Part shown: positions 1-7,411 of the stretch, in pieces
How the letters are laid out: each line of letters starts with the position of its first letter
How positions within the stretch are numbered: the first letter of the stretch is position 1
Assembly: GCA_947302065.1 (NCBI GenBank)
Contig: CAMYUO010000067.1
Span: forward strand, 1-7,868
Source of the DNA: an uncultured Clostridia bacterium
GTDB lineage: Bacteria; Bacillota; Clostridia; Oscillospirales; Ruminococcaceae
Length of the DNA stretch: 7,868 nt
Reading direction: 5' to 3'
Program-made: the position numbers and the translations under genes
The notes under the pieces: generated by a model
What the model saw: only the letters and a program-made list of their open reading frames with translations
What the model was told of the DNA's origin: nothing
The model's database searches: none

Positions 1-337
1 CACGCAGCACCATTTCATTTATGTCGATAGGCTTTACCATATAGTCATCGGTACCTGCGATAAAGCCCTCCTGTTTATCTTCAAATGTTTCTTTTGCCGT
101 TACCATCAGTATCGGCAGGTCATAATTTGCACGGCGCAGCTGTCTTGTCAGCTCATAGCCGTCCATATTCGGCATCATAACGTCCGAGATTATGAGGTCG
201 ATATTGGTTTTTTCCATTACGTCGAGCGCTTCCATGCCGTCGCTTGCAGTATGGCACGAATATCCGTGCTGTTTGAGCGCTGCGCCCATCAGCTTTCTCA
301 GGCTGGCATCGTCTTCAACAACTAATATCTGGAACAT
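1..337 (-). CDS. Response regulator, receiver domain (partial, C-terminus off window)
   Basis: The 112 visible residues are a complete-looking CheY-like receiver domain. It starts MFQILVVEDD, with the acidic pair at D9/D10, the phosphoacceptor D52 inside DLIISDVMMPNMDGYE, the switch Thr at T80 (LMVTAK) and the conserved Lys K102 (DDYMVKP). Such domains accept phosphate from a partner sensor kinase and switch an output domain. Here the output domain lies beyond the left edge, so OmpR/PhoB family membership is an inference from the receiver sequence and not seen directly. The ATG at 337 is supported by a purine-rich Shine-Dalgarno (GAAAGGGA, 354-347) about 8 bases upstream. The gene is transcribed divergently from the small RNA unit at 578-762, with about 240 bp between them. 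No kinase gene is visible. Confidence 0.9.
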   Translation of the reverse strand, partial: MFQILVVEDDASLRKLMGAALKQHGYSCHTASDGMEALDVMEKTNIDLIISDVMMPNMDGYELTRQLRRANYDLPILMVTAKETFEDKQEGFIAGTDDYMVKPIDINEMVLR

Positions 338-374: not shown

Positions 375-388
375 CACTTCCCCAAGTG
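375..388 (-). promoter_or_regulatory. G-loop hairpin in the leader of the response regulator
   Basis: On the minus strand CACTT-GGGG-AAGTG is a perfect 5-bp stem with a four-G loop, about 40 bases upstream of the start codon. Its 10 bases ACTTGGGGAA (387-378) are exactly complementary to the C-rich loop of the small RNA at 654-663. Whether it lies in the transcript depends on the unmapped start site. The hairpin is seen directly; a regulatory role is inferred. Confidence 0.4.
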
Positions 389-510: not shown

Positions 511-577
511 TCAAAAAAGTTTTTGTTAACTCCCGATAATTCATTTTGGGTTCACATAGGGCTGTTATTATATATAC
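511..577 (+). promoter_or_regulatory. Promoter of small RNA unit A, with 11-bp direct repeat
   Basis: An extended -10 element TGTTATTAT (TG at 563-564, hexamer 566-571) puts the start near 578. There is no consensus -35. Upstream are two TTCA half-sites exactly 11 bp apart (540-544 and 551-555), and above those an A/T tract (513-524) that could act as an UP element. Positions 511-574 align without gaps to 1727-1790 with about 52 of 64 identities, and the -10 part is the best conserved. An 11-bp half-site period just upstream of the -10 is typical of OmpR/PhoB-class activator sites. That interpretation is inferred. Confidence 0.6.
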
Positions 578-704
578 AACAACAAGAGAAGAAACCTCTT
601 CAAAGACTTTTGACATTGAGTTAAACTTAAAGTCAGTTATATCTTTTCTGCGATTCCCCAAGTCGCCATAGCATGATTTTAAGTTTGACTGAATGTCAAA
701 AAAA

Positions 705-721
705 TCCCTTTCATAATTCCA
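705..721 (+). repeat. 17-base direct repeat, copy 1 (pyrimidine-rich element of RNA A)
   Basis: TCCCTTTCATAATTCCA is identical to 1898-1914 and lies just upstream of the terminator in both RNA units. Its first eight bases are the exact complement of the Shine-Dalgarno region GAAAGGGA (354-347) of the divergent response regulator gene. Confidence 0.75.
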
Positions 722-726
722 TAAAG

Positions 727-762
727 AATTAAAGCTCATCTTCCCGGATGAGTTTTAATTTT
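727..762 (+). terminator. Intrinsic terminator of small RNA A
   Basis: The arms 727-740 and 747-760 pair over 14 positions with one G-U wobble, around a six-base loop. The GC-rich top is CTCATC/GATGAG. The 3' arm itself carries the U-rich run TTTTAATTTT. Confidence 0.65.
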
Positions 763-891
763 GCCCTCGCGCGGGCGGCGCTTGTCCGTCGCATAGCAGT
801 CTCATGTGACGGATATTTTGTTTCGCTCCGAGCAAAAAAATTCGTTTATCAGCTCGTTGATACGGGCTTTTATTTTTATAGGAGGTGCGGT
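763..891 (+). other. Structured leader upstream of the cupin gene
   Basis: This 129-base stretch between the terminator of RNA A and the cupin start contains three hairpins: 763-766/773-776 (GCCC/GGGC), 785-794/804-813 (10 bp including one wobble, followed by TATTTTGTTT) and 829-833/852-856 (CGAGC/GCTCG). The middle one could act as a second terminator. An open frame continues upstream from the cupin gene through this stretch to 748, but it starts inside the RNA A terminator and has no ribosome site. I see no convincing promoter and no riboswitch I recognise. Confidence 0.35.
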
Positions 892-1239
892 ATGCACGAA
901 TTCCCAGAGTTTATGAAAAGGCAGGCTAACATCATTCCCAAGAGCCAGCAGAACACGCCCGACATCACAGGCTACTACTATACTGCCAATGACGGCAGCC
1001 AGATGGCGTTCTGGTCATACTCTGCTGACAGGGTCTCCAAGGAGCACATGCACGATTACGATGAATACATGATATGCGTTGAGGGCGAATATATCGTTAC
1101 GATAAACGGTGAAGAGACCGTTCTGCACGCAGGCGACGAGCTGTTCATACCAAAGGGTGCGATGCAGGGCGGACGTGTCAAGGCAGGCACACGCTCTATC
1201 CACGCTTTCGGCGGTGTGAGGGTAAAGCCAGATGTTTGA
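892..1239 (+). CDS. Small cupin-domain protein
   Basis: This 115-residue single-domain cupin has no signal peptide, so it is probably cytosolic. Motif 1 is intact: H52-x-H54-x3-E58-x6-G65 (from EHMHDYDEYMICVEG). Motif 2 is present as G81-x5-P87-x-G89 (GDELFIPKG), but the position of the usual fourth metal ligand His is Gln92 (AMQGG). Cupins of this size bind a metal and act as small enzymes or ligand sensors; the substrate cannot be told from sequence. The ATG at 892 is chosen because AGGAGG (880-885) sits six bases upstream; the in-frame ATG at 748 lies in the preceding terminator. The stop overlaps the start of the GNAT gene by 8 bases, so the two are translationally coupled and probably work on related substrates. 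Confidence 0.85.
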   Translation: MHEFPEFMKRQANIIPKSQQNTPDITGYYYTANDGSQMAFWSYSADRVSKEHMHDYDEYMICVEGEYIVTINGEETVLHAGDELFIPKGAMQGGRVKAGTRSIHAFGGVRVKPDV

Positions 1240-1696
1240 GATAAAGCCATACGGCGAGGACATGAAGCGTGAGCTGTTTGAGCTGACTGCAAAATGCTTT
1301 GAGCAGTGCGGCAAGGTCTTTGAGCCGGACGGCAGGCACGCCTTTTACAATGATATACCGCACAATTTCGTGCAGTTGTGGTGCATGTTTGACGGTGAAA
1401 CGATGATCGGCACGGTCGGACTGAAAAGGCTGTCCGATGACAGCTGTGAGCTGAAAGCGCTGTATCTTGAGCAAAAGTATCAGGGCAGAGGTCTCGGGCG
1501 GCGGCTTGCACAGACGGCGATAGACTTTGCAAGGAAAAAAGGCTATGCAGAGATGTATCTTGACTGCATGTCGTCGAGTGTGAACGCCGTGGCACTCTAT
1601 GAACGGCTCGGATTTCATAAAGCTGCGAAATATAACAAAAATAATTTTGCAGATATTTTTATGAAAATGTCTCTTCAGCAGCCGCAAACCCTTTAG
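1232..1696 (+). CDS. GNAT-family N-acetyltransferase
   Basis: This 154-residue protein carries the acetyl-CoA pyrophosphate-binding motif Q84-x-x-G87-x-G89 (QGRGLG) after the beta-4 strand ELKALYLEQKY, and the C-terminal motif NAVALYERLGF (118-128). The fold covers nearly the whole protein, as usual for single-domain GNATs. Family members move an acetyl group from acetyl-CoA to an amine on a small molecule, peptide or protein; the acceptor is unknown. The ATG overlaps the cupin stop by 8 bases, indicating coupling. The gene ends in TAG, which matters for interpreting the internal TAG in atpG. The promoter of RNA B begins about 30 bases downstream, with no separate terminator between, so read-through would end at the RNA B terminator. 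Confidence 0.9.
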   Translation: MFEIKPYGEDMKRELFELTAKCFEQCGKVFEPDGRHAFYNDIPHNFVQLWCMFDGETMIGTVGLKRLSDDSCELKALYLEQKYQGRGLGRRLAQTAIDFARKKGYAEMYLDCMSSSVNAVALYERLGFHKAAKYNKNNFADIFMKMSLQQPQTL

Positions 1697-1726
1697 GCAT
1701 AGGCTTTTGACAGTCCAAAAAAATTC

Positions 1727-1793
1727 TCAAAAAATTTTTGGCAGACCCCCGAAAATTCATATTCGGTTCATTTAGGCCTGTTATTATATAGTT
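1727..1793 (+). promoter_or_regulatory. Promoter of small RNA unit B, paralogous to that of unit A
   Basis: The extended -10 TGTTATTAT (hexamer 1782-1787) predicts a start near 1794. TTCAT half-sites at 1756-1760 and 1767-1771 are 11 bp apart, as in copy A, and an A/T tract (1729-1739) lies above them. The gap-free alignment to 511-574 is about 81% identical. Confidence 0.6.
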
Positions 1794-1897
1794 GTCAAAG
1801 GGAGAGAGAACTCCCCGAGGCACTTAAAATCGAATCGGTATCTTCCGGGTGCCCCCAATAATAGCCCGAAGATCAATCAATAGATATTCTAAAAATT

Positions 1898-1914
1898 TCC
1901 CTTTCATAATTCCA
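1898..1914 (+). repeat. 17-base direct repeat, copy 2 (pyrimidine-rich element of RNA B)
   Basis: This is an exact match to 705-721, in the same orientation and the same place relative to the terminator. The sequence between the shared landmarks has diverged strongly, so the identity suggests selection on the element. Confidence 0.75.
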
Positions 1915-1962
1915 ATGATTAAATACTTACTTCTTTTGAGGAGTGGGTATTTAATCATTTTT
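1915..1962 (+). terminator. Strong intrinsic terminator of small RNA B
   Basis: The stem ATGATTAAATAC/GTATTTAATCAT (1915-1926, 1947-1958) continues inward through TTACTTC/GAGGAGTGG to a six-base loop, about 19 pairs in all. It is followed by a T run (1958-1961) and another T6 run at 1969-1974. Confidence 0.85.
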
Positions 1963-6541: not shown

Positions 6542-6979
6542 TTACACGCTGTCGTTGAGGCTTGCCGAGCTTATCTCGGTCAGTTCCTGAGTTATCTGAT
6601 CCTGTCTTGCTCTGTTATACATAAGTGACAGGTTCTCGATCATTTCATCTGCGTTATCCGATGCAGATTCCATTGCCGCACGTCTTGCCGCCTGTTCGGA
6701 TGCGAACGAATCGACTATCGCCGAATAGAGCAGTCCGCACAGATACGCAGGCATCATTCCCTCGAACACCTCTTCGGGAGACGGATCGTAAACGGGTGCT
6801 GCGTGGCGTGTATTTCCCCACGAATTAAGGTTCTCGACAGGCAGGATAGCCATTTCGCACGGCTCCTGTGTCACTGCCGAAACAAAAGTTGTATAGATAA
6901 GGTCAACGCTGTCGAACTCGCCTTTCTTAAAGCGTGCTGCGACGTCCTCGGCGATGTCCATTGCGCCGTACATGCTCAT
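6542..6979 (-). CDS. atpG: C-terminal fragment of gamma subunit downstream of the TAG, possible re-initiation
   Basis: The frame downstream of the TAG has its first ATG at 6979 and a second at 6973. GAGG (in GCCGAGGGC) lies about eight bases before the second, so re-initiation is conceivable. The fragment of up to 145 residues contains the rest of the globular domain and the whole C-terminal helix (NLSLMYNRARQDQITQELTE). Fifteen codons between TAG and the first ATG would be lost. Two-chain complementation of gamma is not something I know to be established. Confidence 0.5.
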   Translation of the reverse strand: MSMYGAMDIAEDVAARFKKGEFDSVDLIYTTFVSAVTQEPCEMAILPVENLNSWGNTRHAAPVYDPSPEEVFEGMMPAYLCGLLYSAIVDSFASEQAARRAAMESASDNADEMIENLSLMYNRARQDQITQELTEISSASLNDSV

Positions 6980-7024
6980 GCCCTCGGCGATCTCGGAAAA
7001 CGAATCGGTAACGTTATAATCACG

Positions 7025-7411
7025 CTATGAGAAATACTCGACGGCAATTTTGCCTATCACCATGATGCTTACTTCTCTGCCCTTTTGCCGCAGGTCATCA
7101 GCTTTTGCAGCTGCTTTTTTGAGCACGTTGACGTTAAAGCCGCCCGCAAGACCTCTGTCGCCTGCGATGACTATCATAAGTGTTTTTTTCTTTTCGACCT
7201 TGGTCGTAAAAACAGATGTAAAATTGCTGTCCTTTGAGATGTCGCACATTGCATTGAAAAGAGTTTCAAAGAACGGCTGTACCGCTACTGCTCTTTCTTT
7301 TGCACGGCGCATTTTCGAGGTAGCAACGAGCTGCATGGCTTTGGTTATCTGCTTGGTGCTCTCGACGCTCTTTATGCGCCTTTTTACATCTTTCATATTG
7401 GCAGTTGCCAT
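7025..7411 (-). CDS. atpG: N-terminal fragment of gamma subunit as translated up to the TAG
   Basis: If TAG stops translation, the product is 128 residues: the N-terminal coiled-coil helix plus the first half of the Rossmann-like globular domain. It would lack the C-terminal helix needed to form the central shaft and so could not function alone. The ATG at 7411 has GGAG overlapping the atpA stop as its ribosome site. Confidence 0.6.
   Translation of the reverse strand: MATANMKDVKRRIKSVESTKQITKAMQLVATSKMRRAKERAVAVQPFFETLFNAMCDISKDSNFTSVFTTKVEKKKTLMIVIAGDRGLAGGFNVNVLKKAAAKADDLRQKGREVSIMVIGKIAVEYFS

Follow-up and report, generated by a model that had tools for sequence, protein, structure and literature searches.

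In Streptococcus, the CiaR-controlled csRNAs occur as several similar small RNAs (sRNAs) per genome, all under one OmpR-type regulator that acts through a direct-repeat box, TTTAAG-N5-TTTAAG; each is described as a stem-loop, an unpaired linker complementary to translation starts, and a terminator, with sizes that vary such that some members have the terminator stem only (PMC3091779). LhrC1-5 of Listeria monocytogenes are also multicopy and depend on LisRK, and their redundant CU-rich UCCC motifs, located in loops or single strands, block translation (PMC4132741). UCCC is treated in that paper as a motif that blocks the Shine-Dalgarno sequence in low-GC bacteria, and RsaE, SprD, RNAIII, and FsrA appear there as C-rich Firmicutes sRNAs whose UCCC is expected to pair with it (PMC4132741).

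By analogy, the sRNA family described here would work most like the CiaR csRNAs and LhrC, but is a member of neither, because its box is different and it has no Rfam match. Like the csRNAs, it comprises several sRNAs per genome with a direct-repeat box, stem-loop, linker, and terminator, and its members vary in size, some having no stem other than that of the terminator; however, the box is TTCAY-N6-TTCAY in place of TTTAAG-N5-TTTAAG, the sequence is otherwise different, and the copies are arranged in tandem at a single place, divergently from the regulator genes, whereas csRNA genes are scattered. With LhrC it shares redundant C-rich motifs and the character of a multicopy sRNA of a two-component system (predicted, in this case), but LhrC is an Rfam family, and both the lineage and the promoter element differ. 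The C-rich UCCC motif is likewise common to RsaE, SprD, RNAIII, and FsrA, from which the present family is distinguished by its tandem copies, its association with a single conserved two-component locus, and a 15-nt linker that does not vary.

Two tandem units and their surroundings

The window (that is, the whole stretch of 7,868 nt analysed here, from an uncultured Clostridia bacterium of the Ruminococcaceae) contains two units that the initial annotation had described as tandem paralogous sRNAs of an unrecognised family. That observation is real, and the family extends far beyond the window. The paired promoters are, as had been stated, 81% identical (blocks 511-574 and 1727-1790, over 64 nt), and the identical 17-base element, TCCCTTTCATAATTCCA, starts at 705 and 1898. 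Three shared landmarks, CTTAAA, TATCTT, and CCCCA, start at 626, 640, and 656 in copy 1 and at 1823, 1839, and 1853 in copy 2, so that, as reported, the first and last landmarks are 30 bases apart in each copy; CTTAAA, however, is present in only one of eight copy-2-type units, so its occurrence in both copies is due to chance. A 5' hairpin does exist in each copy, although that of copy 2 competes with pairing between the leader (AAAGGGAG) and the linker. Private terminators were upheld by folding, in which copies 1 and 2 each form a 3' terminator hairpin, but a simple terminator scan called neither of them on the plus strand. Not mentioned in the initial annotation were the promoter box, which is of the activator type, and the neighbouring two-component system (window 1-337, minus strand). 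The features of the locus are as follows:

1..337, minus strand: 5' part of an OmpR/PhoB-type response regulator gene, from its translation; cut by the contig end, divergent from the sRNAs
375..388, minus strand: CACTTGGGGAAGTG in the regulator leader, a possible GGGG-loop hairpin; 10 nt exactly complementary to the copy 1 loop
397..428, minus strand: regulator promoter box TTAAT-N6-TTCAT-N10-TAAACT, with the geometry of the sRNA boxes
540..571, plus strand: copy 1 promoter TTCAT-N6-TTCAC-N10-TATTAT (box pattern search)
578..762, plus strand: sRNA copy 1, predicted start to terminator end (folding; covariance model 606-722, 122.1 bits)
608..701, plus strand: copy 1 long hairpin, 28-nt arms 89% complementary, with compensatory changes
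650..666, plus strand: copy 1 apical hairpin GCGA-UUCCCCAAG-UCGC, with both-side changes in three of four pairs
705..720, plus strand: copy 1 linker TCCCTTTCATAATTCC (exact pattern search)
725..762, plus strand: copy 1 terminator hairpin (folding)
1756..1787, plus strand: copy 2 promoter TTCAT-N6-TTCAT-N10-TATTAT (box pattern search)
1794..1962, plus strand: sRNA copy 2, second structural type (folding, alignment of copy-2-type units)
1842..1871, plus strand: copy 2 CCCC-loop hairpin (alignment of copy-2-type units)
1898..1913, plus strand: copy 2 linker TCCCTTTCATAATTCC (exact pattern search)
1914..1962, plus strand: copy 2 terminator hairpin (folding and self-complementarity)

Cupin and GNAT genes lie between copy 1 and copy 2, and the opposite strand downstream of the array encodes a Na/Pi symporter-PhoU protein and ATP synthase subunits. 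The ATP synthase gamma gene (window 6542-7411, minus strand) appears as two open frames separated by an in-frame stop near 7025, possibly a sequencing error in this fragmentary genome.

Structure and distribution of the family

The general plan of a unit is an activator-type promoter followed by a usually long hairpin, a linker, and a terminator. Copy 1 folds with a z score of -9.66 (none of 200 shuffles was as good) and copy 2 with one of -3.37 (1 of 200). Covariation was assessed in (i) 23 long-hairpin units (alignments A1 and A3) and (ii) eight copy-2-type units (A2); short units, those with a different hairpin, and L145, which a contig end cuts, were left out. Among the long-hairpin units, the consensus structure pairs in 97.5% of cells versus 86.7 in shuffles, both sides have changed in 14 of 23 pairs (shuffle mean 10.0; 6 of 500 shuffles reach 14) and in 71 cells versus 20.0, and the covariation score is 0.449 versus 0.232, a value reached by none of 500 shuffles; the tested structure was derived from the same alignment and the sequences are related, both of which favour the structure in this test. 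Further pair types were no more numerous than in shuffles (24 versus 25.5), and slid versions of the structure paired in 26.5-50.5%. RNAalifold identified compensatory change in 16 of 25 pairs for the full long-hairpin units, and the copy-2 type, with its eight units, exhibits such change in 8 of 35.

The apical hairpin is GCGA..UCGC in most units and GCGG..CCGC in two genomes; the other units carry ACAA..UUGU, ACAG..CUGU, or ACGG..CCGU, having lost the CCCC loop and kept the upstream UUCCCUC. The claim that a conserved RNA had retained its loop on differing stems is consistent with these data, in that stems change compensatorily across units and the loop stays C-rich. In the copy-2 type the 5' leader is able to pair with the linker; such cis pairing was rejected as a family-wide trait, as it fell within 5% of shuffles in 13 of 67 units (L123, which has a short leader, was left out). 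Long units of 227-298 nt (L014, L018, L019, and L022-L026) occur in larger genomes, with GCGATCCCCCAAGTCGC in the first of two hairpins that precede the linker.

Of 29 genomes of the genus, 26, including all 20 of the good ones, contain exact copies of the 15-mer TCCCTTTCATAATTC, at 62 sites in total; its reversed pattern yielded no match in the same 29. The sRNA units, or contig-end pieces of them, constitute 56 of these sites at one to five per genome, although two of the 56, in G017 and G024, are known only as sequence-search matches. Four genomes each carry five units approximately 300 bp apart. Of culturable carriers, R. bicirculans 80/3 (L131, G015) has a single exact copy and Ruminococcus sp. 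FC2018 (L135, G008) two. Two 15-mer-negative genomes encode units divergent from the regulator, one with a one-base linker variant (G013) and one cut by the contig end (G019); in G025, which is 80% complete, no unit was found. In all, 68 distinct units were collected, of which 67 were folded (contig-cut L145 being left out).

When the collection of named genomes was searched with the pattern TCCCTTTCATAATTCYATRNA, which misses units with ATAAG directly after the linker, 38 stretches were recovered: 29 hold sRNA units, mostly in Ruminococcus or Clostridia by label, and six are excisionase sites (discussed later). The remaining three, from Psychrobacter, Arcobacter, and Candidatus Atribacteria, are without the box and look like chance matches. 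The long-hairpin covariance model matched in 6 of 197 family genomes, representing 3 of 125 genera, and across the order it matched the window's own genome alone among 295, under strict filters that can lose weak matches. A fourth genus is added by G087 (L245), whose diverged array was missed by the model and is divergent from the regulator. That array has five or more copies of the element, spaced by about 220 bp, with TCCCTTATATAAATTC linkers and a GTCAT-N6-TTCAT box.

The initial annotation had looked to further loci with covarying stems and conserved CCCCA and TCCCTTTC for support, and these were found by the pattern search and the covariation test. That the family is unrecognised rather than a known repeat also held, as neither the window nor 14 relative loci matched Rfam at the gathering score; a permissive scan returned eukaryotic families only, which we regard as chance matches. 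Paper searches combining Ruminococcus with small-RNA or regulator terms, in a coverage mostly outside subscription papers, returned nothing on the sRNA family. We conclude that a real and apparently undescribed family is tied to a two-component locus, and predict that its members function as sRNAs.

The two-component system and the promoter box

In every genome that carries the 15-mer (26 of 26), the array lies next to one and the same OmpR/PhoB-type response regulator gene, in divergent orientation; the window's regulator is 88% identical to that of G003 over 112 aa. Orthologues of the regulator have receiver and winged-helix domains, and a kinase gene (HAMP and HisKA domains) follows wherever the stretch is long enough. 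The array is likewise divergent from the regulator in other genera, namely in all three model-positive genomes (G122, G164, and G242) and in G087, and ten more named contigs, with units other than those of the genus genomes (L123, L124, L125, L127, L141, L152-L155, and L157, with L141 being the G122 contig) carry the two together on opposite strands. No regulator was present in the stretch examined of L121, L144, or L145, and regulator orthologues of 53-61% identity, at nine loci, had neither box nor element within 1.5 kb upstream.

Each promoter consists of an 11-bp direct repeat, TTCAY-N6-TTCAY, and a -10 without a -35, and no sigma-70-like promoter was called at either copy 1 or copy 2. Promoters that OmpR/PhoB-type regulators activate are built in this way, with an 11-bp direct repeat where the -35 would otherwise be. 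The box and -10 precede 50 of 52 distinct element copies (at most two mismatches; copies with 330 nt upstream), the two box-less copies being excisionase sites, and at one to five units per genome the functional kind is that of multicopy sRNAs with a shared regulator box. A strict form of the box yielded 23 matches in 17 genomes, 18 of them at sRNAs, and its reversed pattern none in the same 17-genome control; a relaxed form yielded 97 matches in 29 genomes versus 10 for the reversed pattern, with 58 of the 97 located at arrays, as counted by position. In 12 of 26 genomes the box recurs at the promoter of the regulator itself, with TTAAT as the first half-site in 11 and an exact box in one, and the other 14 are without it. 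That this regulator, and not another one, binds the box is a prediction. Comparison of sequences thus far established a family with compensatory structure, a promoter box, a terminator hairpin, and a fixed two-component position. An extra box (TTCATATTCGGTTCAA...) with a -10 is located on the sRNA strand between the regulator and the first unit in L012, L013, L016, and L017.

Genes were read at part of the relaxed-box matches; in other genera the box was found in four genomes, where the sites read are those at the arrays. The box and -10 are located before ftsH in 10 of 29 genomes (L059, L076, L202-L206, and L209-L211; the family assignment was tested on one gene, whose N-terminus the other nine share), and the box is found before trkA in three genomes of a single clade, before a LacI-like gene in three, and before an Hsp20 gene in one. 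MTHFR is downstream of the box in two loci whose gene was read, and in L064, L193, L194, and L195 the box is followed by a conserved AAGGNNACANGGACNCCGCAGAG leader. The presence of the box before ftsH and hsp20 suggests a membrane or protein-quality stress as the inducing signal, which is the weakest step of our interpretation.

A phosphate reading, prompted by the Na/Pi-PhoU neighbour and the PhoB-like box, was weakened because PstS-type matches occur in 6 of 15 genomes with none over the cut-off, because only some genomes have the Na/Pi gene next to the array, and because those box sites whose genes were read precede ftsH, trkA, LacI-like, MTHFR, or hsp20 genes and none pst. PhoB and PnpS are the best named families for the regulator and kinase, far below the cut-off, and an identity as PhoB/PhoR was rejected on the curated values (PhoB, 189.9 of 296.2 bits; PnpS, 207.7 of 400; PhoR_proteo, 172.6 of 334.2).

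Predicted action, targets, and alternatives

We consider it probable, judging from sequence, that these are tandem sRNAs beside a regulator and kinase, activated by that regulator, which repress several mRNAs through the C-rich loop and the linker at ribosome-binding sites. Based on position and box, the adjacent response regulator would bind TTCAY-N6-TTCAY and induce each sRNA copy; the sRNAs would in turn repress translation as their CCCCAA and UCCCUUUC motifs pair with ribosome-binding sites, and target mRNAs are predicted to carry GAAAGGGA or TTGGGG near the start codon. In the window's clade there may also be feedback on the regulator mRNA via a CCCC-GGGG loop contact. Like the initial annotation, whose interpretation as a regulatory RNA family is supported, we infer that the C-rich loops may mediate sRNA action. 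Both UCCCUUUC and CCCCAA fit G-rich sites; CCCCAA is unpaired in all 34 folded units that have it, and the linker octamer is more than 0.5 unpaired in just 30 of 67. More tentatively, we postulate a control module in which the tandem array would be a main output of its two-component system, copy number (1-5) would tune the response, and feedback would come from the CCCC loop kissing a GGGG hairpin with which the regulator mRNA begins, the contact being rewired from clade to clade.

A search for the linker complement together with a start codon yielded 34 matches versus 13 for the reversed pattern in eight genomes, counts that, like those for pairing, are not independent, as the genomes are related; there was little recurrence among the 30 loci read, which include scpB-like N-termini in two genomes. 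An HTH gene of the excisionase type (66 aa; TIGR01764) exhibits an exact 15-nt linker complement over its ribosome-binding site, at six sites in five Ruminococcus genomes (L090, L097, L126, L133, L137, and L149, with named and unnamed contigs matched by coordinates). This gene of mobile elements is a possible sRNA target, but a lead only, because the mobile genes are related, the window's own genome (L033) has a one-base variant of the complement, and a viral homologue is without it.

It is unlikely, in our view, that the RNAs act mainly on the adjacent system, as a built-in feedback or with the regulator leader as a sponge, and have few distant targets. The array position beside the regulator is fixed, as such a role would imply, and the copy 1 loop and the regulator leader in the window's genome share a 10-nt exact complement (ACTTGGGGAA), in a stretch that can form a hairpin, CACUU-GGGG-AAGUG (AACUU..AAGUU in two genomes). 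Loop-leader complements of 8-10 nt were found in 9 of 29 unit-leader pairs, from seven window-clade genomes plus G015 and G003; an equally good match to the loop is present in 3 of 433 control leaders, and the duplexes of seven genomes rank in the best 0.5-2.8% of these controls. Linker-leader duplexes are in the best 1.2% for G008, G012, and G027. Most other genomes, however, are without such a leader fit: the loop complement is just 4-7 nt in 20 of the 29 pairs, including copy 2, G008, and G012, and the linker fit has a median rank of 6.5% over all 43 pairs. Further, the linker sequence is conserved to the letter, an indication of several targets.

Titration of a bound protein (Hfq, CsrA-like, or other), instead of pairing with mRNA, is improbable: while an invariant linker with varied stems would suit a protein site and Hfq is present (27 of 29 genomes), the C-rich single-stranded motifs fit Shine-Dalgarno pairing better than they do the GGA motifs of CsrA titrators. 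We give very little credence to the units encoding small peptides. Although an in-frame start codon precedes the element in 43, 29, or 32 of the 68 units, depending on the frame, none of the three frames is opened by one throughout; the median lengths amount to 7, 0, and 0 codons, and hairpin lengths vary without a period of three. Varying copy number and the near-identical tandem copies in G023 might recall a decayed mobile repeat with no function, but this least credible of readings is already contradicted by position, with the element at one locus only (excisionase sites aside), and by the compensatory change in stems.

Species of Ruminococcus are major degraders of fibre and starch in the rumen and gut. 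With a defined regulator, a box that can be read across genomes, and an RNA whose several copies share one unvarying motif, a post-transcriptional stress circuit becomes directly testable in these organisms. If tandem, regulator-activated sRNAs repress several mRNAs as we propose, the family would add another lineage to the recurring theme of two-component systems driving several redundant C-rich sRNAs.
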